Positions 22,959 through 38,954 of a stretch of DNA of 64,000 bases are shown one piece after another (within the stretch, counting starts at the first letter, position 1; the number at the start of each line of letters is the position of its first letter). The notes beneath the pieces are model-generated. The model had not been told where the DNA came from and searched no databases. It worked only from the letters and a program-made list of their open reading frames with translations. Position numbers and translations under genes: made by a program. Source of the DNA: Williamsia muralis NBRC 105860 (lineage in GTDB: Bacteria > Actinomycetota > Actinomycetes > Mycobacteriales > Mycobacteriaceae); the NCBI RefSeq assembly GCF_001598915.1, contig NZ_BDAP01000001.1, positions 124,001 to 188,000 on the forward strand, written 5' to 3'.

Positions 22959-25109
22959 TCAGCAGAGACAGATGCCGGCCGACTGCAGCCACGCGGTGAA
23001 GGCCGCCTGATCAGGACTGGTGGTCACCCACCAGGTCACCGTCGAGTTGGCCTCGGAGTACACGAAGTATCCGGTGCCGCCGTTGTCCATCGCGGCGAAG
23101 TACGCATATGTGGTGCCGCCATCGAACGGCCGGGAGAACATCTCCGACGAGTTGCCTTCGGAGTACTCCTTGTCGGCTATTGCCTTGATGTTCGAGTCCG
23201 ACGACTCGATGATGACGATGCTCTCGGCGCGCACCGCTCCGGTGCCGTCGGCCACGACGGCGGGCGCCGGCTCGCAGACGATCGCGGCCAACGCGTAGTC
23301 CGGTCGCGACTTCTCGCCACATGTGGTGATGTCGACGAGATCGGTGTTCGCATCGGCCAGCGCCTGATCGTCGACGTCGAGCGATGTTGATGCGGTCGAG
23401 GTCTCGGTGGTCGGCTGCGTGCGCCGAGTGGTTGTTGTGGTTGTTGTCGTCGACGTTGTCGAGGACTGGCCCGGTAGTGCTTTCGGGTCGTCGTCGCCTC
23501 CGGAACTCGCCAGGGCCACCCCGAGGATGACCACCACCAAGACAACAACCACGGCTGCGATGGCGGCGATGGCGATGTTCCGGTTGCGGTTGGGATTCGG
23601 CGGCGTGGCCGGCGTGGCCCCGCCGAACGTGGGCTGACCGCCGCCGGATCCGTACAACGGGCCCGAATTCTGCTGGCCGGCAGGACCGTACGGCGACCCC
23701 TGGCCGAAAGGGGCCTGTCCGTAGGGGGCTTCCTGGCCGTAGGTACCGGCTTGCCCGGCCGCGTAGGGGCCGGCTCCTGCACCGTCGTAGGGGTTCTGGG
23801 CGTAACCACCGGATTGCGCAGCCGGGGCGCCCCACGACGGCGGCGGTTCGATTCCCGTAGGAATCGGTGCCTGTTGGGTGGGTGGGAACTCCGGAGTCGA
23901 CGGGGCCGAGGGGGTTGCAGGGGCCGATCGGGGAGGCTCGGGTGACTTCGACAAGGGGACCGGGACAACGGGCGGTATCGGTGCGCCGGGCGACGCTGCG
24001 GCCGCTCCCTCTTGTTGCCCGACAACGGATTCGAGGGCACCGAGGGCCACGACGGTCTTCGGGTTGTCGAGTGTGGCGACGGTGCCGAGTTCGCCGAGTC
24101 GTTGGTGCACCAGCGGCACCCGGGATGATCCGCCGGTGAGATAGATCCGGACGTCGCGGCCGGCTCCGGCACGGGCCAGTGTGCGGGAGGTCAACTCCAC
24201 CACGGCATCGACGTTCTGTGAGATGAGCTGTTCGAACTCCCCCCTGGTGAGTTCGAGGGTGGCCTCGTGGCCACCGGCGCTGATGTTGATGACGGCCCGA
24301 GGTGACTCCGAGAGCAATTCCTTGGCCCGCCGGATGTTGTCGTCGACCGCTCGCTTGGTGGACAGGTTGGCGCCCGTGCGCAGGTACTCCAGCAGTTCGG
24401 GGTTCCGTGAGGTGAGTTGCTTGTCCACCCAACGCCGGATCATCGCGTCGAGGTTCTTGCCACCGAGACCGTTGTTGCCGTCGTGGGCAACGAGGTCGAT
24501 GGGTCCGGCGCCGCCCGCGGCTCCCGCACCGAGCTTCACCACCGCCACATCGCATGTTCCGCCGCCGTAGTCGACGACCACAACGGTGGTCGAGCCCGCG
24601 TCGGCGGCATCGCCGATTGCGCTGGTGTAGTGGGCGATGGCCGCGCGCGGCTCGGAGATCAGTGTGACCGCGGATCGATCGAAGCCGATCAATTCGGCAG
24701 CGCGGGTGAGGATGTCGACTTCTTCGGGCGACCACGCCACGGGGTGGGTGAGGATCAACCGGGTCGGCCTGGTGCCACCGCGCCTCTCCGCCGCGCGTGT
24801 CAAAGCCGAATTGAGCACGGCCGCAATGAGATTCTCCAACGGCAGATCCAGATTGCCGACCGGAACGGTTCCCGCGTTGATGTGCCGCTTGGGATGGGTG
24901 ATGAATGCGGCCGGGTTGTTGCCGGCCTGGTTGACCGCGGCCTCGCCGACCACGATGTTGCGGTAGGAGTCTGCGTAGACCGACGACGACATGATGTCGC
25001 TGTTGTGCGAGAGCGGCACCACCTGCGGCGCGCCGTGCCCGGGTTCGTAGGCGGCCGCCGCGGTGTTGGACGTGCCGAAGTCGATTGCCAGCCACCATTG
25101 GTTCGACAT
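22959..25109 (-). CDS. Membrane-anchored Hsp70/DnaK-like ATPase with extracytoplasmic domain
   Basis: This 716-residue protein has an actin-like Hsp70 ATPase domain at residues 1-370: phosphate-1 IDFGTSNT (9-16), phosphate-2 VDYGGGTCD (179-187) and adenosine motif YLTGGSSRVP (323-332). There is no substrate-binding domain. Instead residues 370-505 are Pro/Gly/Tyr-rich, a single membrane helix spans about 511-534, and a Thr-rich stalk leads to a 150-residue extracytoplasmic domain with Cys residues. The layout suggests signalling or wall assembly rather than folding. ATG 25109 has AAGGA upstream. An acidic-protein operon lies upstream. Confidence 0.85.
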   Translation of the reverse strand: MSNQWWLAIDFGTSNTAAAAYEPGHGAPQVVPLSHNSDIMSSSVYADSYRNIVVGEAAVNQAGNNPAAFITHPKRHINAGTVPVGNLDLPLENLIAAVLNSALTRAAERRGGTRPTRLILTHPVAWSPEEVDILTRAAELIGFDRSAVTLISEPRAAIAHYTSAIGDAADAGSTTVVVVDYGGGTCDVAVVKLGAGAAGGAGPIDLVAHDGNNGLGGKNLDAMIRRWVDKQLTSRNPELLEYLRTGANLSTKRAVDDNIRRAKELLSESPRAVINISAGGHEATLELTRGEFEQLISQNVDAVVELTSRTLARAGAGRDVRIYLTGGSSRVPLVHQRLGELGTVATLDNPKTVVALGALESVVGQQEGAAAASPGAPIPPVVPVPLSKSPEPPRSAPATPSAPSTPEFPPTQQAPIPTGIEPPPSWGAPAAQSGGYAQNPYDGAGAGPYAAGQAGTYGQEAPYGQAPFGQGSPYGPAGQQNSGPLYGSGGGQPTFGGATPATPPNPNRNRNIAIAAIAAVVVVLVVVILGVALASSGGDDDPKALPGQSSTTSTTTTTTTTRRTQPTTETSTASTSLDVDDQALADANTDLVDITTCGEKSRPDYALAAIVCEPAPAVVADGTGAVRAESIVIIESSDSNIKAIADKEYSEGNSSEMFSRPFDGGTTYAYFAAMDNGGTGYFVYSEANSTVTWWVTTSPDQAAFTAWLQSAGICLC

Positions 25110-25276: not shown

Positions 25277-25675
25277 TCAGAGCACCGTGAACCCGTCGGG
25301 GATGCCGTTTTGATCGGAGTCGGTGACCGACAGGTCGTGCACACCGTCTTGGTCCAGGTCGGCGAAGACGGTGTCCGCCGTCCCGTCCTGGTCGAGGTCG
25401 GACAGGCTCGTCTCGCTGAACCCGTCACCGTCGGTGTCGTACGCGATGGTCTCGGCTTCCCCGTCTTCGGTGAAGTCCTGGACGATCGTGTCGCCGACGT
25501 TGTCGCCGTCGGTGTCGAGCAGCGCGGACTCGGAGTAACCGTTTCCGTCGAAGTCGGCTGTTTCGACGACATAAGGCGGTTCGTCAACGTAGGGCGGCTC
25601 GACGACGTCGGAGTGGCCGCTGTGCTCGGCCGGCGGATCCTTCGGGGACGGCTCGGGGTGGACCGAATCAGACAT
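25277..25675 (-). CDS. Asp-rich repeat protein (calcium-binding-like), second of operon
   Basis: This 132-residue protein has no signal peptide and is mostly tandem repeats of roughly 20 residues with DxDxDG-type loops (DTDGDNVGDT, DTDGDGFSET, DLDQDGTADT, DLDQDGVHDL, DSDQNGIPDG). These resemble EF-hand/thrombospondin type-3 calcium loops. It is a paralogue of the gene 30 bp upstream and forms an operon with it. Ca2+ binding is an inference from the loops; the protein is expected to be cytoplasmic. Confidence 0.75.
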   Translation of the reverse strand: MSDSVHPEPSPKDPPAEHSGHSDVVEPPYVDEPPYVVETADFDGNGYSESALLDTDGDNVGDTIVQDFTEDGEAETIAYDTDGDGFSETSLSDLDQDGTADTVFADLDQDGVHDLSVTDSDQNGIPDGFTVL

Positions 25676-25705
25676 GGTTCACAACTCCTGTGATCGTTCG
25701 TGGAT

Positions 25706-26110
25706 CTAAAGAGCGCTGGTGTCGGGCGTCTCGACGGTGGAGGGGTCCACCTCGGTCCACTCGTCGGTGGTGATGTCGTGGGTGTAGACGGCGTCCACCT
25801 CACCGTCCTGGTTCTCGTCGACAAAGGCCACGTCGTGGACACCGTCGACGTCCTCGTCGACGAAGACCGTGTCGACCTCGCCGTCCTCGTCGGTGTCGGA
25901 GACCGCCGTCTCGTGGTGCTCGTCGCCGTCGGTGTCGAAGGCGATGGTCTCCGGCTCGCCGTTCTGGTCGTAATCCTGGATGAGTGCGTCGCCGGAACCG
26001 TCGGCGTCTACATCGACCAGGGCGGACTCGACGACTCCGTCGCCGTCGATGTCGAAGACCTCCAGGACGGTGGCGTCTTCGGCGATTTCGGGGATGCTGT
26101 TGTCGGACAT
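25706..26110 (-). CDS. Asp-rich repeat protein (calcium-binding-like), first of operon
   Basis: This 134-residue acidic protein has repeats of about 20-22 residues such as DIDGDGVVESALVDVDADGS, DQNGEPET, DTDGDEHHET, DTDEDGEVDT and DENQDGEVDA. It lacks a signal peptide. GGAGAACCC before the ATG is a good ribosome-binding site. An ECF-like promoter at 26168-26197 drives it and probably the paralogue downstream. The same promoter precedes a third acidic protein gene at 33765-34082. I do not recognise an assigned function. Confidence 0.78.
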   Translation of the reverse strand: MSDNSIPEIAEDATVLEVFDIDGDGVVESALVDVDADGSGDALIQDYDQNGEPETIAFDTDGDEHHETAVSDTDEDGEVDTVFVDEDVDGVHDVAFVDENQDGEVDAVYTHDITTDEWTEVDPSTVETPDTSAL

Positions 26111-26167
26111 CGGGTTCTCCTTGTGTGTGGGGCGGGCGCAGGCCGTGGTGGCTTTGCTGTGTTGTGA

Positions 26168-26197
26168 ATAGGAGAAACCCGGTGGCGTGAATGTTCC
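26168..26197 (-). promoter_or_regulatory. ECF-sigma-type promoter GGAAC-N18-CTCCTAT of the Asp-rich operon
   Basis: On the minus strand GGAACATTC (26197-26189), 14 bp, CTCCTAT (26174-26168). An element with identical blocks and identical spacing occurs at 34143-34172. The leader is about 50 nt. Confidence 0.6.
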
Positions 26198-26256
26198 GGC
26201 TGATCGGAGAAAATCTCAGGAAGATTTTGCTGCCCGGTGGATCGAGCCGGGATGAC

Positions 26257-26994
26257 TCAGTGCGGTCCGCGCGAAAGGGCGAAGTCAGCGGCCGCCTCGA
26301 TGCCGTCGTTCCAGGGTTCGCCGTGCCCTGGCAGCACCACCGATGCGTGCGTATCGGCGAGTCTTTTGACCGAACCCAGGGCACGACCACTGTCTGCCGT
26401 CGCGGCACCGGCGACGATCTGTGGTCCGGTCTGGGCGGTGTACGGATCGAGCGTGACCAGTGCGTCGCCGGCGATCAGGGCGTCGCGGTCGGGGAAGTGC
26501 AGAGCGATGTGACCGACGGTGTGGCCTGGCGTCGGGATGACCACCGGCGCCCCGGGTAGCGCCTGGTCGGTGGTGATGGGAGTCGGATCGAGTACTCCCC
26601 GGACCATCAGTGCCCCGGCCATGGTCATCCGCCCGAGTGCGGGGATGGATGCCGGATACCGAAGTGGATAGATCAGCCGCGTCTTCTCGTGCTGGTAGCG
26701 GTAGGGATGCCGGGCGAGCCGTTCGTCGTCGGTGTGCACCCACACCGGCACGTTCCACTCCTTTTGCGCCCGACGTGCGGTGCCCACGTGGTCGAAGTGC
26801 GCATGGGTGAGCACGATCCCTTCGACCGAGTCGGGCTTGCGACCCAGTTCGTCGAGGGCTGAGATCAGGTGCGGCCACACCCGGGGTAGTCCGGAATCCA
26901 CGATCAGCACCCGATCGTCGTACTCCACGAGATACAGATTCGTGGAGGCGTAGGTCAACATGTGGATGCCCGGGGCGACATCTTTGCTCAGCAC
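26257..26994 (-). CDS. MBL-fold metallo-hydrolase
   Basis: This 245-residue glyoxalase II-like metallo-beta-lactamase fold has metal ligands THAHFDH, GHTVGH and a distal GHGEPW. The start is GTG 26994 with CGGAG upstream. The hydrolysed substrate (thioester, lactone or other) cannot be told. A perfect stress-type promoter lies 160 bp upstream on the same strand, implying a leader of about 150 nt. It has no close link to its neighbours besides that. Confidence 0.82.
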   Translation of the reverse strand: MLSKDVAPGIHMLTYASTNLYLVEYDDRVLIVDSGLPRVWPHLISALDELGRKPDSVEGIVLTHAHFDHVGTARRAQKEWNVPVWVHTDDERLARHPYRYQHEKTRLIYPLRYPASIPALGRMTMAGALMVRGVLDPTPITTDQALPGAPVVIPTPGHTVGHIALHFPDRDALIAGDALVTLDPYTAQTGPQIVAGAATADSGRALGSVKRLADTHASVVLPGHGEPWNDGIEAAADFALSRGPH

Positions 26995-27302
26995 AGTGCT
27001 ACTCCGATCAGAAGTGGTTCTTCAGGGCGTCTTGCGCACGGTCGAGCATCGAGGCGAACGAACACCCGACAAGGAAATCGATTGCGTGCTGGCTGTTTTC
27101 GATGGCCGAGGTCATGGTTCGGGCATCTCCTGCCGATGTGGTGTTCTGGCGGATTACCCGGCCTGCGAGGCCACAAAACGCATGGTCCGGCGAAGGCCTC
27201 TATCCCACCGGTTGTACCGAGGTGATCAGAGTTCACGTTTTGTTGAGTCCGCGTTCGATCGGCGGATGCATCAAGCTCTTCTGCTCGCGACACAGTCCGA
27301 GG
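26995..27302. other. Intergenic region between MBL hydrolase and GT4 gene
   Basis: This 308-bp divergent gap holds a minus-strand stress-type promoter (27154-27179). I see no credible small gene in the leader between it and the MBL start, and no clear promoter for the GT4 gene. Confidence 0.4.
27154..27179 (-). promoter_or_regulatory. SigF/SigB-type promoter upstream of the MBL hydrolase
   Basis: On the minus strand GTTT (27179-27176), 16 bp, GGGTAA (27159-27154). It is a perfect match but about 150 nt from the start codon. Confidence 0.55.
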
Positions 27303-28406
27303 ATGCGAGTGGTGCAGGTCGCGAACTTCTACGGCCCCCGGTCCGGGGGCCTCCGGACTGCGGTCGATCAACTCGGGGCCGGGTACTGCGCGGCAGGGCA
27401 CGACGTGACGCTGATCGTTCCGGGACCTCTGCACACCGAGGAGAAGTTGGCGTCCGGAGTCGTGCGGATCACCGTCCCCGCTCCCAGGGTTGCGTTCACC
27501 GGAGGATATCGGGTGGCGCGGATGCGGCCCGTGGTCGATGTCGCCGCCGCCATGCGACCCGACGCCATCGAGGTGTCCGACCGGTTGACGCTGCGTGGGC
27601 TCGGGCAATGGGCTCGGCGCCGAGATGTCGCCAGCACGATGATCTCCCACGAACGCCTCGACCGCATGCTCGGTCAGGTGATGCCTGCGCAGGCCGCGCG
27701 ACGGCTGGCCGACGTGGCCAACCGCCGCACCGCGCAGTCGTACGACACGGTGGTGTGCACCACCGACTTCGCCCGCGAAGAGTTCGACCGGATCGGCGCG
27801 ACCAATGTCAGGCGGGTCCCGCTGGGCGTGGACCTCCGGACCTTTCATCCCGATCGTCGCGACGCAGGCACTCGGGCTCGGTGGGCAAGGACGGATCAGC
27901 CGCTCTTGGTCCACTGCGGCCGATTGTCGGTCGAGAAGCACGTGGACGGGAGCATCGACGCGCTTGGTGTGTTGCGCGACAACGGAGTCGACGCCCGGTT
28001 GGTGATCGCAGGCGACGGGCCGATGCGAGGTCGGCTCGAACGCCGCGCCGCCGGTCTGCCCGTCGAATTCGCGGGGTTCATCACCGACCAGCTGGCACTC
28101 GCCCGGCTGCTGGCGTCCGCGGATGTGGCACTGGCCCCGGGACCGCACGAGACCTTCGGGTTGTCGGCGCTCGAATCCCTTGCCTCGGGGACACCGGCAG
28201 TCGTCTCCGCCACGTCGGCGCTCGCCGAGGTCCTCGATCGAGAGTGCGGGTTCGTGGCAGAGAACTCGCCCGAGGGTTTCGCCCATGGCATCGGTGATGT
28301 GTTGTCCCGGCCCGAGGTCCCCCGCCGGGAGGCCGCCCGGCGGCGTGCCGAAGACTTCGGGTGGCCGCGGGCGGTCCGGGAGATGCTTGCCGCGCTGGCG
28401 GTGTGA
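27303..28406 (+). CDS. Glycosyltransferase family 4 protein (mannosyltransferase-like)
   Basis: This 367-residue GT-B enzyme starts at RVVQVANFYGPRSGGLRTAV and has a donor-domain HCGRLSVEKH, then VIAGDGPM and the E-x7-E motif PHETFGLSALESLASGTP. The family includes mycobacterial mannosyl- and glucosyltransferases acting on lipid acceptors. ATG 27303 is chosen since the domain begins there; CCGAGG directly precedes it, so the ribosome-binding site is poor and the transcript may be leaderless. It stands alone, followed by a TetR gene in the same direction. Confidence 0.82.
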   Translation: MRVVQVANFYGPRSGGLRTAVDQLGAGYCAAGHDVTLIVPGPLHTEEKLASGVVRITVPAPRVAFTGGYRVARMRPVVDVAAAMRPDAIEVSDRLTLRGLGQWARRRDVASTMISHERLDRMLGQVMPAQAARRLADVANRRTAQSYDTVVCTTDFAREEFDRIGATNVRRVPLGVDLRTFHPDRRDAGTRARWARTDQPLLVHCGRLSVEKHVDGSIDALGVLRDNGVDARLVIAGDGPMRGRLERRAAGLPVEFAGFITDQLALARLLASADVALAPGPHETFGLSALESLASGTPAVVSATSALAEVLDRECGFVAENSPEGFAHGIGDVLSRPEVPRREAARRRAEDFGWPRAVREMLAALAV

Positions 28407-28554
28407 CGCCGACGCCGACGGGGACGGGCGTCGACGAAATCAGAAGTTTTCAATCACTTGACTTAGTCGGTCGCTGCATACATGGTGGAACACGCCGCGA
28501 TGCAGTCATCGATGAACCGCGGGCGGCCCTTCACCCGAGGACTCGAGGAAACCA

Positions 28555-29214
28555 ATGGCGAGTGGCAACACCGGCACCAAGTCGGCCCGGGCAGCGGAGA
28601 CGCGCGAGCTGATCCTCTCCGCCGCGGAACGGCTCTTCGCCGAGCACGGGGTGTTCGCGGTCTCGAACCGGCAGGTGAGTGAAGCCGCCGGGCAAGGAAA
28701 CAACGCTGCAGTGGGGTATCACTTCGGCACCAAGACCGACCTCGTTCGTGCCATCGTGCACAAACACGGGGTCGGCATCGAACAGCATCGCGCACGGTTA
28801 CTCAGCGAGGCGGGGGACTCACCCGATGTCCGGGATTGGATCGCCTGTCTGATCCAGCCGCCCATCGACCACCTCGCCTCCCTCGGAAGCCCCACCTGGT
28901 ACGCGAGGTTCAGCGCGCAGGTGTTGACCGACCCCACCTTGCGCGAGATCGTCTACAACGATTCGCTCACCTCGCCATCGCTCCAGGAGACGTTGCGCGG
29001 CATCGGTAGTCGACTGCCCGAGCTGCCTGCCGAGGTCCGATGGTTCCGTGCCGACATGGCACGGCAGTTGTCCGTGCACATGACAGCCGAGCGTGAACGG
29101 CGTCTCGTGAATGCGCCCGACGACGAGTCGCTGGGCTGGGACGACTTCTCCGCCGATCTGCTCGATGCCATCGTGGGGATGTGGCTGGCTCCGTCGTCGC
29201 GTGGGGCCGAGTAG
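28555..29214 (+). CDS. TetR-family transcriptional regulator
   Basis: This 219-residue protein has an N-terminal TetR helix-turn-helix at about residues 12-58 (ILSAAERLFAEHGVFAVSNR, then GYHFGTKTDLV) and an all-helical C-terminal ligand domain. GAGGAAA precedes the ATG. The likely targets are itself or adjacent genes (GT4 or iniAC), but no matching operator is obvious in the 148-bp upstream gap. The ligand is unknown. Confidence 0.88.
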   Translation: MASGNTGTKSARAAETRELILSAAERLFAEHGVFAVSNRQVSEAAGQGNNAAVGYHFGTKTDLVRAIVHKHGVGIEQHRARLLSEAGDSPDVRDWIACLIQPPIDHLASLGSPTWYARFSAQVLTDPTLREIVYNDSLTSPSLQETLRGIGSRLPELPAEVRWFRADMARQLSVHMTAERERRLVNAPDDESLGWDDFSADLLDAIVGMWLAPSSRGAE

Positions 29215-29229
29215 CCCGTCTGTCTCCCG

Positions 29230-30666
29230 TCAGATCGCGCGACGCATCATCGAGTAGGTGCGCAAGAGTACGGCCACCGCCTGCTCCTCGGCCGCGGACC
29301 CGCCCATGAGGCCGGCCTCATGGACCTGTCGAAGGCGTCGATCCAGCTCGGCCGCAACGGTATTGCGGTCAGCGGTGGGCGGCAGGCCGATCCGTCCCGC
29401 GATACCCGAGCCGATCAGGATCTGCCGTAACTCGCCGACCCAAAGCGACTCAGGGTCCGATCGGGTCAGGGCGTGCATCGCCTTGAACTCGGCCATGGTG
29501 TGTGCCTGAGGGGTCTGACGAACCTGACGCAGGTACGACCGGATCTGTCCGCCTGCAGGATGCGTCAACGCCAGATGCTCGATCTCGGTGCACGCCCGCA
29601 CAGCTCGCGTGATGAGTACCGACCGGGTGAGATCGAGTTCGATGTTCGCCCGGAGCTCATCGACTCCCGAACGCTGCTGCAGCCATGAGTTGACCGCGTG
29701 GGCGCCGCGCGGGGCGAGCTTTCTGGCGTGCCGTAAACCGTACTCGCCCAACAGGTCCAGCAGTCGGTCGCGTTCGGCCTCGGTACCGCTGGAGGGGGTC
29801 TCTGCTTCCAGCCAGAGCTCGAGCGCCGTGTCGGAGAGCCCGGCCAGTGCCGCCAGTGCGTCGGCATCGGATTCGGTGAACTGGCCGGTCTGCGCCGTCT
29901 GCGCCAACAGTCCGGCGACGGGCTGCACCGTCAGCAGGCTCGCCGACATGGATTCGGCGATCACGGCGGACTGTGCTCGTGCCGCGTCGATGGGATCGAC
30001 GTCGCCGAATGCGCCCTCGCCCAGGGTGTCCGCCTTGGCCAGGGCTCCGATGGTGTTGACCGCCGAGAAACCCAGCTCGCGCAGGAACTGCACTTCGTCG
30101 GCGCGCGGCGTCGCGTCGAACAGGAAGATCGCCGCGTCGGCGTTCACCGACGCGTCGCGGGTCTGCCCGAACCCGTCGATCAGTGCGCGGCGGGTGGCCT
30201 GCTCGTTTCCGGTGGTGATGGTCGCCAGTCCGGGGGTGTCGATCAGCACCATGTTGCGCAGCAGTCGGCTCGGCAGGAAACGGTCGAGATAGGCGACCTG
30301 GTCTGTTGGACAACCCAATTCGGTGGGTCTGCCGTCGATCAGCCGGACGGTGTGCCGGGCGCCGCCGATCTTCACCGCCTCGGCGCGCGCCGGCGCACCG
30401 TCCTGGTACACCGCAACCACCTTGGTGCACTCGGTGGCCGCGGTGTCGGCGACCAGGTCGCCGATCAGGGCATTGACGAGTGTGGACTTGCCTGCCTTCA
30501 CCCGCCCGACGACCACCACACGCGGCGGCGCCCACAGGGTGTCGCGGATCTGTGCGGTGCTGCGAGCCAAGGGGCGGTCGATACGCGCGATCTCTGCCAG
30601 TGCCGCGGTGAGCTGATCACGGAGAGCATGGGGCCGGGTCCGTCGCCCTTCGTGGGGCCGGCTCAC
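29230..30666 (-). CDS. iniC: Dynamin-like GTPase IniC
   Basis: This 478-residue protein has P-loop GRVKAGKST (54-62), switch region ECTKVVAVYQ, G3 DTPGLATI and a C-terminal helical part. It matches IniC of the isoniazid-inducible iniBAC system of mycobacteria, which with IniA remodels membrane under cell-wall stress. Its start overlaps the iniA stop by 4 bp (30663-30666). iniB is not adjacent here. It is convergent with the TetR gene. Confidence 0.85.
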   Translation of the reverse strand: MSRPHEGRRTRPHALRDQLTAALAEIARIDRPLARSTAQIRDTLWAPPRVVVVGRVKAGKSTLVNALIGDLVADTAATECTKVVAVYQDGAPARAEAVKIGGARHTVRLIDGRPTELGCPTDQVAYLDRFLPSRLLRNMVLIDTPGLATITTGNEQATRRALIDGFGQTRDASVNADAAIFLFDATPRADEVQFLRELGFSAVNTIGALAKADTLGEGAFGDVDPIDAARAQSAVIAESMSASLLTVQPVAGLLAQTAQTGQFTESDADALAALAGLSDTALELWLEAETPSSGTEAERDRLLDLLGEYGLRHARKLAPRGAHAVNSWLQQRSGVDELRANIELDLTRSVLITRAVRACTEIEHLALTHPAGGQIRSYLRQVRQTPQAHTMAEFKAMHALTRSDPESLWVGELRQILIGSGIAGRIGLPPTADRNTVAAELDRRLRQVHEAGLMGGSAAEEQAVAVLLRTYSMMRRAI

Positions 30667-32585
30667 GGGGTGTCACCGATGGAGGCCGACTCCGTGCCGA
30701 GCACCGGGTCTTTCCCGAGAACCACATGCTCGCCGAGGTCCACATCGCTGCGTCGGGCGTCGGCTTTGAGCCCGGCGATGGCGGCGTCCAATTGTTCGAT
30801 GAGAGAGACGATCTCGGTGAGACGACGGGTCAGACCGCGCACCCGCTTGTCGCGGGTTGCCTTGTCTTCCTTTGCCGCTTCGGCTCCGGCGTTGATCTGT
30901 TCGGTGATCTCATCGGTCTGGGCACGCAGGTGACGGCGGTAGGCCACCACGATTTCCGGTCGCGCGGTCGCGACGGTTCGGTCGATCACACGCAGAGTCG
31001 ATTTGTTGGCGAGCGACAGTGTTTCGCGCAGCCAGGTGATGAGGTGCTGACGTCCGTTGCGCATGGCTCGGTAGCCCAGGTTCACCGACAACCAGACACC
31101 TCCGGCCACGAGCCCGATCGGCAGCACGGCCGCCATCGCGAGGCTGCCGAAGACCGCGCCGCCGACCATTCCGCCGGTGAGCAGGTTCGCCCCCATGAAG
31201 CCCATCATCATGGCGCTGGGATCGACGACGTCTTTCCACTTCCGTTGCACCTCTGGGGAATTGATGTCCTCGGCGACCAGCGCGCCCGCAACGGTGTCCA
31301 TGATGTCTTCCCAGTGCTCGTCGTTGCCGAACAACCGGGAGACGATGTCGTGTAGCGAGGTCGCGAAGGTGTCGAATGCCCGCGCCGACACGGCTTGCAG
31401 GTCGGACATGATGGCGGCGGTGAACACCTGTGGTTGCTTGCGCAGGATGCGCCACCCCTCGCCGTTGATCCGTGCGCTCCAGTCCTCCTTGATCTTGTTG
31501 AAATCGGCGTCGAGTACGGCCACGGCCCGCTGCCGGGCGAGGGTGATGTCGCGGGAGAGGTGCTGGTCCCACTCGGTGCCGTGCTCGCGAAGCGCCTTGA
31601 GCTGGGCCTTTTTCTCATTCAGGTCGTCGAGTGCGCTCGAATTGCCCTGCACCACAGCGATCTCGGTGTCGAGGCGGGTCTTCATCCGATGCATGCCGCT
31701 CAGGCAGACCTGCAGTCCGTCGAGTTGCGGCGCGATCTCGGCGTTGTCCAGCAAGCCGGTGATGGCGTCCCGCAGCCCCGGTATGCCCGAGGCCGTGAGG
31801 ATCTCCTCGCGGGTGCCCGCAGATTCGGTCAACGCAGCGAGCGCGCGCACCCCGGACACCCCGATCACCTGGACATCGCGACCGAGTCGGCTGCGGACTA
31901 TCGTCCTGTTCTCCTCGGCGATGGTTCGCCAGTTGCGGCGGTTCTTGTCGATCTTGGTCATCGCCACCACCACGGAACCGGAGGTCTCGGTAGCGGTCCT
32001 GAGGAACTCGATCTCCGGTGCCGTCAGGGGAGCGGCGCTGTCACACACCATCACGATCGCCCCGGCGCGGCGCGCGGCGGTCAGTGCCAGGCGCGCGTGC
32101 CGTGGGTCCAGGCCGCCGGCGCCCGGTGTGTCCACCAGGGTGAGACCGGGAAGGTGCAACGGGTCGACGGCAACCACAGCCTCGGTGGGCAACGCCTCGA
32201 TCGTGGGGTCGAGCACGTGGCGGCCACCCATCGTCACCCATTCCGGGAGCTGATCGACCGGGATCACCTGATCGGAATCGCCGAAGACCAGGCGGGCGGT
32301 GCCGGCCGCAAGCGTGTCGTCGGGTGGCGAGAACCACACGCTCGCGCTGGTGGTGATGTCGACACCGACGGGTGCGAGGTCGGCCCGGCCGATGAGCGAG
32401 TTCACCAGGGTGCTCTTGCCGCGCTTCACCTCACCGACGAAGACCACCGCAGCTGCCGAGTCGGCTGCGTGGAAGCGGGCCTGTGCCAACTCGGCGGCCT
32501 TCGTCTGTCCGTACTTGCGCAGCGTCTCGGTCGCGGTGGCCAGGGCTTCGGCCGCGTGGGCGGTGGCACCTGCGTTCACGGTCAC
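30663..32585 (-). CDS. iniA: Dynamin-like GTPase IniA
   Basis: This 640-residue bacterial dynamin-like protein has P-loop GEVKRGKST (51-59), DTPGAGG (G3), TKID (G4) and a hydrophobic segment (GFMGANLLTGGMVGGAVFGS, then MAAVLPIGLVAGGVW) in the distal half, followed by helices. IniA in mycobacteria performs membrane fission and aids tolerance to wall inhibitors. The start is GTG 32585; a second in-frame GTG lies two codons on. It is the first gene of a two-gene operon with iniC. No promoter core was recognised in the 101-bp gap to the sigma gene. Confidence 0.85.
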   Translation of the reverse strand: MTVNAGATAHAAEALATATETLRKYGQTKAAELAQARFHAADSAAAVVFVGEVKRGKSTLVNSLIGRADLAPVGVDITTSASVWFSPPDDTLAAGTARLVFGDSDQVIPVDQLPEWVTMGGRHVLDPTIEALPTEAVVAVDPLHLPGLTLVDTPGAGGLDPRHARLALTAARRAGAIVMVCDSAAPLTAPEIEFLRTATETSGSVVVAMTKIDKNRRNWRTIAEENRTIVRSRLGRDVQVIGVSGVRALAALTESAGTREEILTASGIPGLRDAITGLLDNAEIAPQLDGLQVCLSGMHRMKTRLDTEIAVVQGNSSALDDLNEKKAQLKALREHGTEWDQHLSRDITLARQRAVAVLDADFNKIKEDWSARINGEGWRILRKQPQVFTAAIMSDLQAVSARAFDTFATSLHDIVSRLFGNDEHWEDIMDTVAGALVAEDINSPEVQRKWKDVVDPSAMMMGFMGANLLTGGMVGGAVFGSLAMAAVLPIGLVAGGVWLSVNLGYRAMRNGRQHLITWLRETLSLANKSTLRVIDRTVATARPEIVVAYRRHLRAQTDEITEQINAGAEAAKEDKATRDKRVRGLTRRLTEIVSLIEQLDAAIAGLKADARRSDVDLGEHVVLGKDPVLGTESASIGDTP

Positions 32586-32686
32586 TCCAGATTCGATCGA
32601 GTAAAAGGGTCAGTCGATGGATCGGTTTCGCTGCCGATAACTCTGCCGTATCCCGGGGTGTCTGCGACATTTATCAAGTGACCGAC

Positions 32687-33202
32687 ATGAGCGAGCGTGA
32701 CCTGGTACTACGCAGTCAAGAAGGCGACCAGGCGGCTTTCGGTGAACTCGTCACCCGCAACCGCGACCAGATCTGGGCCGTCTGCCTACGGATCACCGCC
32801 AACCGACACGACGCCGAGGACGCCCTGCAGGACGCGCTGATCGCTGCTTGGCAGAACATCGGCAAGTTCCGTGGCGACTCGAAGTTCACCAGCTGGATGT
32901 ACCGGATCGCCGCGAACGCCGCCCTCGCGGTGATCCGCAAGCGTCTCGACACCTCCGCAGACGGTCCACCGGAGTTCGAGTCGGCTGCGCCCCGGATCGA
33001 TGCCCAGGTGACCGACGTCGACCGGGTTCGCACCGCGCTGGCCGCGTTGCCGCTGGAGTTCCGCGAGGCAATCGTGTTGCGCGAGTTCGGCGATCTCTCA
33101 TATCAGGAAATAGCCGACCAGCAGGGGGTGGGCGTGCAGACTGTGAAGAGCCGGATCAACCGGGCTCGCGCCAAACTGCTGGAGATTCTGCAAGATGCCT
33201 GA
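32687..33202 (+). CDS. ECF-type RNA polymerase sigma factor
   Basis: This 171-residue sigma factor has region 2 (DAEDALQDALIAAWQNIGKF, then FTSWMYRIAANAAL) and region 4 (LPLEFREAIVLREFGDLSYQ followed by EIADQQGVGVQTVKSR). No region 3 or C-terminal extension is present. The start is ATG 32687 or GTG 32678; neither has a clear ribosome-binding site. It overlaps by 8 bp an NTF2-like gene. A SnoaL/NTF2 domain is fused to the sigma factor in ECF41-type proteins, so this pair may be a split version. No anti-sigma factor is adjacent. Confidence 0.88.
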   Translation: MSERDLVLRSQEGDQAAFGELVTRNRDQIWAVCLRITANRHDAEDALQDALIAAWQNIGKFRGDSKFTSWMYRIAANAALAVIRKRLDTSADGPPEFESAAPRIDAQVTDVDRVRTALAALPLEFREAIVLREFGDLSYQEIADQQGVGVQTVKSRINRARAKLLEILQDA

Positions 33203-33686
33203 GGCAATCCCCGCCACGATCGACACCATTCCCGCCACCGCCGAGCCCGAGGATGCCCTCAATCGCTTCGCGTTCGGTCTCGACGCCGCCGATCGAGGTC
33301 TGCTCGAGTCGGCATTCACCGACGACGTCTTGTTCGACGTCAGCCGGGTCGGCGACGAGGACAGTGGATTCCCCCCGATCGAGGGCCGCGAGTCGGTGGT
33401 CGGGATGTTGCTGATGTCGATGGGACCGCTCGACACCATGCACGCACTGTCGAATTTCCGGGTTCGCGTAGACGGTGACCGTGCCGTCCTGAACTGTTAC
33501 GCGATGGCCCAGCATTTCCGCCCGGGTGAAGGGCCATCACGGCACACCACCGACCAGGTGATGATGGGCAACAAATACGACGCCGAACTCGTCCGCGACG
33601 GCGACATCTGGCGGATCAAGCGCCTCACCATCGTCACCGTGTGGTCGCAGGGCAACCCCGACGTCCTGATCGACCACCTGCGCTAG
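33195..33686 (+). CDS. NTF2-like (SnoaL-superfamily) protein overlapping the ECF sigma gene
   Basis: This 163-residue alpha+beta-cone protein (EDALNRFAFGLDAADRGLLE, HALSNFRVRVDGDRAVLNCY, YDAELVRDGDIWRIKRLTIV) fits the SnoaL_4/NTF2-like fold. Its ATG lies 8 bp inside the sigma gene, indicating translational coupling. It may sense a small hydrophobic ligand for the sigma factor or act as an enzyme; neither is shown. The stop is followed by a long inverted repeat. Confidence 0.8.
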   Translation: MPEAIPATIDTIPATAEPEDALNRFAFGLDAADRGLLESAFTDDVLFDVSRVGDEDSGFPPIEGRESVVGMLLMSMGPLDTMHALSNFRVRVDGDRAVLNCYAMAQHFRPGEGPSRHTTDQVMMGNKYDAELVRDGDIWRIKRLTIVTVWSQGNPDVLIDHLR

Positions 33687-33696
33687 CCCGCCCCAC

Positions 33697-33763
33697 CCCG
33701 ATGTTGTGCCCTTGTGGCGGCCTCGACCTGGGGTTTTGGTCGCCAGAAGGGCACAACATCGGG
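33697..33763. terminator. 17-bp perfect inverted repeat between convergent genes
   Basis: CCCGATGTTGTGCCCTT (33697-33713) and its exact complement (33747-33763), with inner TGGCG/CGCCA. It starts 10 bp past the NTF2-like stop and ends 1 bp before the acidic-protein stop, so it probably ends both transcripts. Confidence 0.7.
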
Positions 33764-33764
33764 T

Positions 33765-34082
33765 TCACAGGGTCAGGTCGTCGCCCGTGGAGTAGTCGTC
33801 GGTGAGGTCCGGGCCGAGGGTGAAGTCGGTCGCATCGCCGTCGATGTCGGCGTCATCGGTCTCGAAGGCATCGTCATGGGAGTCGACATCGCCGCCATCG
33901 ACACCGGCAACAAGATCGCCCTCGGTGGAGCTGTCGTCGTTGTCGGGCACCAGTTCGTCGAAACCGGAACCGTCGTGGTCGAAGGCGGCTTCGAGACTCT
34001 GGTCGAAGACCGCCGGGTCAACCGCGTCGTCGGCGGCGATCTGCGAAAAGATGTCGCTGAGCGGGTCGTTTGGGCTGGTCAC
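33765..34082 (-). CDS. Small acidic Asp-rich protein
   Basis: This 105-residue protein is extremely acidic (EAAFDHDGSGFDELVPDNDD, AGVDGGDVDSHDDAFETDDA), with irregular DxDG-like pieces rather than the clean repeats of 25277-26110. GTG 34082 is chosen because GAGGAGAAG precedes it; the longer frame has no acidic character. It shares the ECF-like promoter (34143-34172) with the Asp-rich operon. It converges on the ECF sigma/NTF2 pair. The function is unknown. Confidence 0.65.
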   Translation of the reverse strand: MTSPNDPLSDIFSQIAADDAVDPAVFDQSLEAAFDHDGSGFDELVPDNDDSSTEGDLVAGVDGGDVDSHDDAFETDDADIDGDATDFTLGPDLTDDYSTGDDLTL

Positions 34083-34142
34083 GGTACTTCTCCTCGGTCG
34101 TGGGTGCCGCTGCGCGGGCGGCGCGCGGCATGTTGGTCGGTG

Positions 34143-34172
34143 ATAGGAGTGCCGTGGACCCCGGAATGTTCC
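34143..34172 (-). promoter_or_regulatory. ECF-sigma-type promoter GGAAC-N18-CTCCTAT of the acidic-protein gene
   Basis: On the minus strand GGAACATTC (34172-34164), 14 bp, CTCCTAT (34149-34143). The blocks and spacing are identical to those at 26168-26197, 8 kb away. Confidence 0.6.
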
Positions 34173-34245: not shown

Positions 34246-37437
<3,192 letters not shown>

Positions 37438-37457
<20 letters not shown>

Positions 37458-38031
37458 TACGTATCCCGCGGCGTTCGCGCCGATGAGTGGCGAAACCAAA
37501 GTCCTTGTGGCCGTACAGAATGTGTTCGTGGACAAGCCGGGCGCCGTGGCTTCGGCACGAGCACTGTCGCACTTCGGTGAACACTCACTGGGCTGGCTTG
37601 CGGTCGCGGGCACAGGTGCTGCCATCGCGCAGATCCGCGGCGACGAACGTGGTCGGAACCTGTGGGTGGCCGCGGGTGTCGGAGCCTTCGGTGCCCATGC
37701 CGCCTCGGTGGTGCTCAAACGCATCGTCAGGCGCAAGCGCCCCGATCATGCCGACGTGAGGATCGGGGTCGGGACCCCCAGCAAGTTGAGCTTCCCATCC
37801 AGCCACGCCACATCGACCACCGCCGCGGCCATCCTCATCGGTCGCGCCGCCGGTTTACCTCCTGCCGCGCTACCCGCTGCGCTGGTTCCACCCATGCTGT
37901 TGTCGCGGTTGGTGCTCGGCGTGCACTACCCGTCCGACGTCATCGGGGGCGCGTTGATCGGTGCCGCCTGCGCCGCCGCGGTCGGTGCCGGTGAAAGACT
38001 GACGAGAACAGAGAGCCGAGGAATGTTGTGA
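37438..38031 (+). CDS. PAP2-family membrane phosphatase (Rv3807c-like)
   Basis: This 197-residue integral membrane phosphatase has the three PAP2 motifs: KRIVRRKRP, FPSSHATST (PSxH) and SRLVLGVHYPSDV. By position between glfT2 and ubiA it probably dephosphorylates decaprenyl-phosphoribose-5-phosphate in the decaprenyl-phosphoarabinose pathway, the proposed role of Rv3807c. The start is GTG 37438, with a 20-bp overlap into glfT2. Confidence 0.88.
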
Positions 38032-38954
38032 GCGAGGAGCCGATCGAGCACGACGTGGTGCGCGGCCCGCCGAAGAATCTGGCGACCGGTCTGGTGAAGG
38101 CTGTCCGCCCACGGCAATGGGTCAAGAACGTCCTGGTCCTGGCTGCGCCGGTGGCAGCCGGAGCAGTCGACGAACCCGACATCCTGGGCCGGACGGCCAT
38201 CGCATTCGTCGCGTTCTGCCTGGTCGCCTCGTGCATCTACCTCGTCAACGACGCCCTGGACGTCGAGGCCGACCGCAATCACCCCACCAAGCGCTTCCGT
38301 CCGATCGCGGCCGGGGTGGTCCCGGTCAAGCTGGCGTTTGTGCTCGCCGTCGTGCTCGGTGTCGCGTCGATCGGGATCTCGTTCCTGGCCAACTGGCAGC
38401 TCGCGGTGGTCATCGGCATCTACATGGCCATTCAGCTCGCCTACTGCTTCGGCCTCAAACACGAACCCGTCATCGACATCTGCATCGTCTCGTCGGGCTT
38501 TTTGCTCCGTGCGGTCGCGGGCGGCGTGGCCGCCGATCTTCCCAACGGTCTGTCCAAGTGGTTCCTGCTGGTGATGACCTTCGGTTCGCTGTTCATGGCG
38601 GCCGGTAAGCGGTACGCCGAACTGCAGCTCGCCGAACGGACCGGCGCGAAGATCCGCAAGAGCCTCGAGTACTACACCACCACCTACCTGCGCTTCGTCT
38701 GGACATTGTCCGCAACCGCGGTGGTGCTCTGCTACGGCATGTGGGCCTTCGACACGGACGGCGGCCACGACGACAACGTCTGGTACGCACTGTCCATGGT
38801 GCCTTTCACCATCGCCATCTTGCGATACGCAGTGGACGTCGACGGTGGTCAAGCGGGCGAACCCGAAGAAATTGCGCTCGGCGATCGTGTTCTCCAGCTG
38901 CTGGCAATCGCGTGGATAGTATGCGTGGGTGTCGCGGTCTATGCCATCAGCTGA
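38028..38954 (+). CDS. ubiA: Decaprenyl-phosphate phosphoribosyltransferase (UbiA family)
   Basis: This 308-residue polytopic prenyltransferase has the first Asp-rich motif NDALDVEADRNHP (from Asn74) and a second motif region near YCFGLKHEPVIDIC. In mycobacteria this enzyme (Rv3806c) joins decaprenyl-phosphate and PRPP to give decaprenyl-phosphoryl-5-phosphoribose, precursor of the arabinose donor. The start GTG overlaps the previous stop by 4 bp (GTGA). Its neighbours are the phosphatase and aftB of the same pathway. Confidence 0.92.
   Translation: MSEEPIEHDVVRGPPKNLATGLVKAVRPRQWVKNVLVLAAPVAAGAVDEPDILGRTAIAFVAFCLVASCIYLVNDALDVEADRNHPTKRFRPIAAGVVPVKLAFVLAVVLGVASIGISFLANWQLAVVIGIYMAIQLAYCFGLKHEPVIDICIVSSGFLLRAVAGGVAADLPNGLSKWFLLVMTFGSLFMAAGKRYAELQLAERTGAKIRKSLEYYTTTYLRFVWTLSATAVVLCYGMWAFDTDGGHDDNVWYALSMVPFTIAILRYAVDVDGGQAGEPEEIALGDRVLQLLAIAWIVCVGVAVYAIS

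Follow-up and report, generated by a model that had tools for sequence, protein, structure and literature searches.

An orphan extracytoplasmic function sigma factor in Williamsia muralis and a candidate regulon of very acidic proteins encoded near IniA/IniC-type dynamins

Introduction

Among the described systems closest to the locus analyzed here is iniBAC of mycobacteria, which is induced by ethambutol and isoniazid (PMC5760070) and whose IniA protein has been linked to membrane fission (PMC6715688). In M. smegmatis the locus includes a dnaK-like gene, and iniBAC also has a glycine-rich companion protein, IniB, that varies in presence and size (PMC5760070, PMC6715688). The locus in question lies in a 64,000-nucleotide (nt) stretch of Williamsia muralis NBRC 105860 (contig NZ_BDAP01000001.1, positions 124,001 to 188,000), called the window and used for all window coordinates below, and it likewise encodes two IniA/IniC-type dynamin-like GTPases, at least one of them IniA-like, and an Hsp70-like protein. 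IniR, an ATPase carrying a MalT-like domain, activates iniBAC (PMC5760070), whereas the locus described here is linked to an extracytoplasmic function (ECF) sigma factor and a set of DxDxDG proteins; the term “sigma factor” occurs 0 times in the IniR paper. The two systems probably share effectors and differ in their regulator.

Two further likenesses concern single components. In ECF41, ECF56, and other ECF groups, a SnoaL domain is fused to the C terminus of the sigma factor (PMC8999054 and PMC8103513), and a SnoaL-fold protein also stands beside the ECF sigma factor of the window, but as a separate, overlapping SnoaL_4 open reading frame (ORF) rather than as a fused domain. The resemblance to LeoABC is one of protein matches, with the first dynamin of the window, DynA, matching the PADLOC models LeoBC (E value of 5.6e-18) and LeoA (2.8e-15). 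ECF regulons themselves are known; this one would stand out by its unusual partners and targets. An earlier note, made from the letters of this DNA, had called the system undescribed, and no description of it was found in the literature searched, most subscription papers being outside reach. The evidence below makes it likely that the window encodes an orphan ECF sigma factor with its own regulon of acidic proteins, expressed from a promoter that this sigma factor reads.

A promoter motif ahead of acidic protein genes

The elements that carry this interpretation are as follows.

26168..26197, minus strand: ECF-type promoter motif 1, GGAACATTC-N14-CTCCTAT, 57 nt upstream of Asp1
34143..34172, minus strand: ECF-type promoter motif 2, the same blocks and 14-nt spacing, 60 nt upstream of Asp3
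25706..26110, minus strand: Asp1, 134 residues, 45 D+E and 0 K+R, seven DxDxD-type 13-residue repeats
25277..25675, minus strand: Asp2, 132 residues, 36 D+E and 1 K+R, DxDxDG repeat protein encoded after Asp1 behind motif 1
33765..34082, minus strand: Asp3, GTG start, 105 residues, 33 D+E and 0 K+R, weak match to a small acidic family
32687..33202, plus strand: orphan ECF sigma factor that matches sigma regions 2 and 4 and is proposed to read the motif

The earlier note had claimed both the exact repetition of this motif and its position before genes for very acidic, Asp-rich proteins, and both claims held. Two matches at no more than 3 mismatches were found in the window compared to 0.13 expected, and none of 100 shuffles reached two. 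A looser ECF-type pattern identified only these two copies in the window, with 0 hits in the backward control, and no sigma-70 promoter was called between 22800 and 34400, where 1.0 was expected.

Across the 5.54-Mb, 22-contig genome, GGAACNTT-N13..17-CTCCTAT had only 3 matches and 0 backward matches, and every one preceded an acidic Asp-rich ORF. The concern raised in the earlier note, that the motif might be frequent elsewhere without such genes, was therefore not borne out. The third site, a near-exact copy on another contig, lies 55 nt ahead of a gene for a 72-residue DxDxDG repeat protein. Allowing the original pattern up to 3 mismatches raised the count to 14 forward and 4 backward matches, of which the best seven forward matches, those with fewer than 3 mismatches, were read. 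Four of those read had 2 mismatches: one leads a second 72-residue DxDxDG protein gene (C7), one leads a gene for an acidic C39-like protein (C4) whose relative in genome G001 is 73% identical and preceded by an exact-pattern match, and two (L004 and L007) lead nothing alike. L004 (G000:C1:859264-859293) lies 141 nt ahead of a gene that we take to be htpG (Hsp90).

The same arrangement recurs throughout the genus. In nine Williamsia genomes, GGAACNTT-N15-CTCCTAT occurs at 30 sites, with 0 backward, and 24 of the 30 lie ahead of ORFs for acidic, Asp-rich proteins (9 for Asp1, 5 for Asp3, 9 for the 71/72-residue type, and 1 for an Asp2 that has a site to itself) at 33 to 63 nt from the start codon, as expected of the shared ECF-type promoter that the earlier note had proposed. 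Allowing N14-16 and a −10 block of CTCCWAY increased the total to 37 sites, again with 0 backward; 5 of the 7 added sites were read, and all 5 lie ahead of Asp3 or Asp2 relatives. Spacer sequences differ between species while the motif blocks persist. In a family set of 301 genomes, 292 of them outside the genus, the exact pattern was found 39 times forward versus 0 backward, including 9 sites in 7 outside-genus genomes, 8 of which lie ahead of DxDxDG proteins.

A sigma factor clade linked to the motif

The 171-residue sigma protein scores above the cut-offs of the Pfam models Sigma70_r2 and Sigma70_r4_2 and of TIGR02937, identifying it as an ECF (group IV) sigma factor. Its top NCBIfam match, the SigM-type model NF007225, reached 134.3 bits of the 190 required, so that it does not qualify as a SigM equivalog. 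The gene is convergent with Asp3, and no recognized anti-sigma family was detected among ten window proteins scanned with Pfam, in contrast to a classical ECF/anti-sigma pair; an anti-sigma factor of a novel type may nevertheless exist.

Linkage between sigma factor and motif, a further claim of the earlier note, is seen at several scales. The sigma gene is present in 9 of 9 genus genomes (100% identical in W. muralis strain BULT 1.1) and, at an E value of ≤1e-45, in 67 of the 301 family genomes. At this threshold it occurs in 15 of 16 genomes with the exact motif versus 52 of 285 others (Fisher 6e-10, or 3e-4 excluding the genus itself). Five of the seven outside-genus motif genomes have the sigma gene beside the exact site, within about 250 bp in G034, G222, G175, and G199 and at 2.2 kb in G110. 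In G204 the two are on different contigs, and G276 has no sigma match at E ≤ 1e-45 and an exact site that leads no DxDxDG gene.

Each of eight genomes searched in depth had one sigma match at an E value of 1.3e-50 or better, the next being no better than 3.7e-27; in certain other genomes the gene occurs in two or three close copies. A phylogenetic tree separated the window sigma factor and 76 of 79 named relatives from 20 other ECF proteins at 98/96, with the bootstrap not settled and long branches flagged. Judged by these comparisons the sigma factor belongs to a distinct orthologous ECF clade, which a numbered ECF group may already contain.

Two sequence records deserve separate mention. The sigma protein of NZ_JNYV01000002.1 (locus L102), titled Kitasatospora arboriphila, is 99% identical to that of the window, and the record is probably mislabeled or from a mixed culture. 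In a genome without a DynA match, a sigma relative (G016:C1:2025014-2025463) carries an in-frame stop, consistent with joint loss.

Two families of acidic proteins

Two protein families can be defined from these genes, the DxDxDG 13-residue repeat proteins and a small acidic neighbor of the sigma factor. The earlier note had suggested looking for more DxDxDG proteins in the genome, and a repeat-protein profile found 6 places representing 5 genes: Asp1, Asp2, the two 72-residue genes, and a 208-residue frame (L211). From 512 repeats in 73 proteins, selected as [DN]x[DN]x[DN]G matches spaced 13 residues apart, the consensus is D-T-D-G-D-G-x-x-D-x-x-x-x, in which the selection itself fixes positions 1, 3, 5, and 6. 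Position 9 is D or E in 97% of the repeats, and hydrophobic residues are common at positions 8, 11, and 13.

The DxDxDGxxD spacing is ligand-like, as in EF-hands, and makes Ca2+, as guessed in the earlier note, a putative ligand; the repeats differ from EF-hands in their 13-residue tandem period and in the rarity of Glu at position 12 (11%). Thrombospondin type 3-like calcium-binding repeats are also comparable. Asp1 scored 12.5 bits against the Pfam EF-hand model, under the gathering score of 25.9, and Asp2 gave no match, while a Dietzia homologue (L162) exceeded the EF-hand_5 cut-off (40.6 versus 25.9 bits). On this pattern, cation binding by the repeats has a somewhat better than even chance of being correct. 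The top two solved-structure matches of Asp1, SAKe6AC proteins, were discarded as short and with per-domain i-Evalues of >100; the third had an E value of 0.4.

Asp3 has no tandem DxDxDG and fits, weakly, a different family of small acidic proteins encoded near the sigma gene in other genera, the core of which approximates VWxxALxxAxDPxxxxxDPxxVP (25 sequences). Against a profile of 23 members, Asp3 scored 16.5 bits, compared to 6.7 for the best of 200 shuffles.

Dynamins, Hsp70, and the conserved module

The sigma gene is surrounded by the following additional features in the window.

30663..32585, minus strand: DynA, dynamin-like GTPase whose nearest solved structure is IniA 6j72 (E value of 1.8e-18)
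29230..30666, minus strand: DynC, another dynamin-like GTPase, with a 4-nt overlap with DynA; IniA 6j72 again the nearest solved structure (E value of 0.003)
22959..25109, minus strand: Hsp70-like ATPase, 716 residues, strongly hydrophobic segment from residue 512
33195..33686, plus strand: SnoaL_4 (NTF2-like) protein overlapping the sigma stop codon, a local accessory outside the conserved module

The earlier note had mentioned neither the dynamin pair and the Hsp70-like protein nor the C39-like protein and the family of small acidic proteins. Because the 167-nt gap behind Asp2 contains no called terminator-like site, the Hsp70-like gene is probably the third gene of the Asp1-Asp2 unit, and the order motif-Asp-Asp-Hsp70 is repeated in a Rhodococcus zopfii locus (L082). 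In the window, a motif leads Asp3, Asp1-Asp2, and, as the probable continuation of the latter unit, the Hsp70-like gene.

Conservation was assessed in 79 named loci, which ranked highest among the 99 relatives listed in a scan with a sigma alignment and came from Williamsia, Gordonia, Rhodococcus, Corynebacterium, Dietzia, Smaragdicoccus, Nakamurella, Nocardioides, Aeromicrobium, Isoptericola, Leifsonia, Pseudonocardia, Micromonosporaceae, and others. DynC is encoded in 67 of these, DynA in 63, a DxDxDG protein in 59, and Hsp70 in 45, and at least one of the four is found in 70 of 79 loci versus 0 of 20 control loci, the latter being the neighborhoods of 20 out of 50 other sigma-like matches from the eight genomes searched in depth. 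Nineteen outside-genus neighborhoods, drawn from 58 outside-genus sigma genomes by score or exact-motif presence, gave a similar picture (DxDxDG in 18, DynC in 17, DynA in 14, and Hsp70 in 12). Clustering of crude gene calls from 78 loci returned only five families in at least 49 loci: sigma (61), DynA (60), DxDxDG (54), Hsp70 (52), and DynC (49); the next clusters reached 14, which looks like an antisense artifact, then 11 and 9. When both were required at E ≤ 1e-40, 39 of 151 genomes had sigma and DynA, 3 had DynA only, 5 had sigma only, and 104 had neither (Fisher 5e-27).

The NTF2-like protein, proposed in the earlier note as a core partner, did not survive this comparison. SnoaL_4 lies near the sigma gene in only 6 of 79 named loci, five titled Williamsia plus the Kitasatospora-titled L102, whose locus is Williamsia-like, and it was rejected as part of the module. 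The small acidic protein is the better candidate partner: a net-acidic frame occurs within 900 nt upstream of the sigma gene on the same strand in 45 of 77 loci, and 22 of these have a VWxxALxxAxDPxxxxxDPxxVP-like core (crude frame test). That this protein regulates the sigma factor in place of an anti-sigma factor is a guess, possible but doubtful.

Anti-phage defense was also considered as a possible role. PADLOC models matched only the dynamins well (Leo) and the Hsp70-like protein weakly, with no match for Asp1, Asp3, or the C39-like, GrpE-like, and SnoaL_4 proteins.

The proposed promoter in other genera and on plasmids

Searching with a looser pattern, GGAAC[ACT]TT-N14..17-TCNN[AC][TC], extended the motif beyond the exact form. 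It occurs 99 times forward and once backward in 1.32 Mb (the 79 named loci), compared to 0 and 1 in 0.30 Mb from the 20 control loci. In named loci it lies upstream of 40 of 73 DxDxDG ORFs, and in loci outside the named set of 19 of 21, with 0 backward in both; the wider upstream stretch used in these locus counts favors DxDxDG genes with long open frames. With crude gene starts, the motif precedes 11 of 19 DxDxDG genes versus 6 of 250 other genes; a called start upstream of the motif caused several of the 19 to be missed.

Looser sites also lead genes of the small acidic family, Hsp70-like genes (L123, L148, L158, and L160), lipoproteins, and a dynamin gene in L164 and probably L159. In L127, L129, and L164 they lie ahead of small membrane proteins that we take to resemble the CD225/IFITM family. 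In 16 of 77 loci the looser motif is within 900 nt upstream of the sigma gene itself, suggesting that the sigma factor may be autoregulated there.

A sigma relative is also carried by 37 plasmid records. On Rhodococcus erythropolis pLRE138, one motif is followed by genes for a DxDxDG protein, a C39 family peptidase, a small acidic protein, and the sigma factor. The other motif, which lies 191 nt before the annotated start, is followed by genes for a dynamin, a GrpE-like protein, a GTPase, and two Hsp70 proteins; the DxDxDG and small acidic proteins are annotated as hypothetical in the record. On Gordonia pGKT3, genes for a DxDxDG protein and a small acidic protein lie just upstream of sigma, and the pattern found no motif there.

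The pLRE138 GrpE-like protein (L205:13897-14379; 22.3 bits, under the 25.8 cut-off) is encoded between the two dynamin genes and beside the two Hsp70 genes, and is a possible exchange factor.

Interpretation and alternatives

As proposed here, the sigma factor (32687-33202) would guide RNA polymerase to promoters with a −35 block of GGAAC[A/T/C]TT and a −10 block of TCNNA[T/C], for which CTCC[TA]A[TC] predominates in Williamsia, thereby activating a small regulon. Very acidic proteins would be its steadiest product: those with the 13-residue DxDxDGxxD repeat, a member of the Asp3 family, and, depending on the genome, an acidic C39-like protein. Certain lineages would have this promoter also ahead of an Hsp70-like gene or a dynamin operon, the dynamins presumably remodeling membrane with assistance from the Hsp70-like protein. 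The motif, its placement ahead of genes, its linkage to and co-occurrence with the sigma gene, and its copies upstream of that gene in some other genera are what the sequences show, and it is very probable that the sigma factor reads the motif.

Several results weigh against this interpretation. In the window, no motif copy lies ahead of the sigma gene, the dynamin operon, or directly ahead of the Hsp70-like gene, and autoregulation of the sigma factor was accordingly not seen there; elsewhere, 61 of 77 loci have no looser motif upstream of sigma. Some DxDxDG ORFs in named loci that lack the looser motif have weaker GGAAC variants and many have none, and in the W. muralis genome L211 has no convincing motif. 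None of the four module genes is found in 9 of 79 named loci, some of which are on short contigs. The remaining 6 of 30 genus sites lead other genes or nothing evident (three desaturase-like genes, one acidic C39-like gene, one Tyr-rich 76-residue ORF, and one with nothing evident). Because some of the genomes counted had also supplied loci that were read before the looser pattern was picked, the forward count is circular in part, a problem from which the backward and other-ECF controls are free, and because the loci are related by descent, the counts and Fisher values overstate independence.

Common descent also raises the prospect that the motif is merely inherited with its neighbors and functionless. 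Conservation of the blocks while the spacer changes between species, the 39-to-0 forward excess in 301 genomes, and the spread of copies over different contigs of one genome leave this barely credible. That the sites are operators of a DNA-binding regulator is highly improbable: a GGAANNTTCC palindrome lies within 9 of the 30 genus sites, but 21 do without it, and two blocks at a near-constant spacing of variable sequence, 33 to 63 nt before starts, fit the −35 and −10 elements of an ECF promoter. A more serious challenge is that the promoter is genuine but read by another ECF sigma factor of the genome, the linked one having other targets. GGAAC is a common ECF −35 element; the genome has 8 other sigma-like matches at E ≤ 1e-6, and the missing copy ahead of the window's sigma gene would fit as well. 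This idea nevertheless appears quite improbable given that this sigma gene is present in 15 of 16 motif genomes, adjoins the exact motif in five of seven outside genomes, and has the looser motif upstream in 16 of 77 loci, while the 20 other-ECF neighborhoods yielded 0 forward sites.

What the acidic proteins do is a separate matter. They could be secreted or surface calcium-binding structural proteins rather than cytosolic stress proteins, since DxDxDG repeats are frequent in extracellular proteins, and genes that we take to be a cell-wall galactan cluster (Glf/GlfT2/UbiA-type labels; window 34252-38954) begin beside Asp3. No signal peptide was apparent at the N termini of Asp1, Asp2, Asp3, or the 72-residue protein when inspected by eye, without a secretion predictor, and the extracellular alternative seems rather unlikely.

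With regard to function, an analogy with the induction of iniBAC and the role of IniA in membrane fission gives an even chance that damage to the envelope or membrane is what the module responds to. A more specific scheme is speculative and unlikely to be right: Ca2+ entering the cell across a leaky membrane would be sensed and buffered by cytosolic DxDxDG proteins, the small acidic protein would take the place of an anti-sigma factor in controlling the sigma factor, and the sigma factor would induce buffers and a resealing response by dynamins and the Hsp70-like protein, forming a bacterial counterpart of calcium-triggered membrane repair that is widespread and partly plasmid-borne in actinobacteria. 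An orphan ECF sigma clade tied to a sharply defined promoter and coherent targets across many actinobacterial families would provide IniA/IniC-type bacterial dynamins with new partners as well as an alternative regulator, and would offer a handle, in harmless soil bacteria, on the roles of bacterial dynamins and on bacterial calcium signaling.

Other motif sites in the genus

In three Williamsia genomes (L025, L027, and L030, from G003, G005, and G008), the motif-led gene is one that we take to be cytochrome-b5/fatty-acid-desaturase-like, a hint at membrane-lipid change within the regulon. At another exact match (L015; G001:C5:205523-205552), no gene is evident downstream and a hairpin-like stretch comes next, possibly marking a small RNA or a decayed site.

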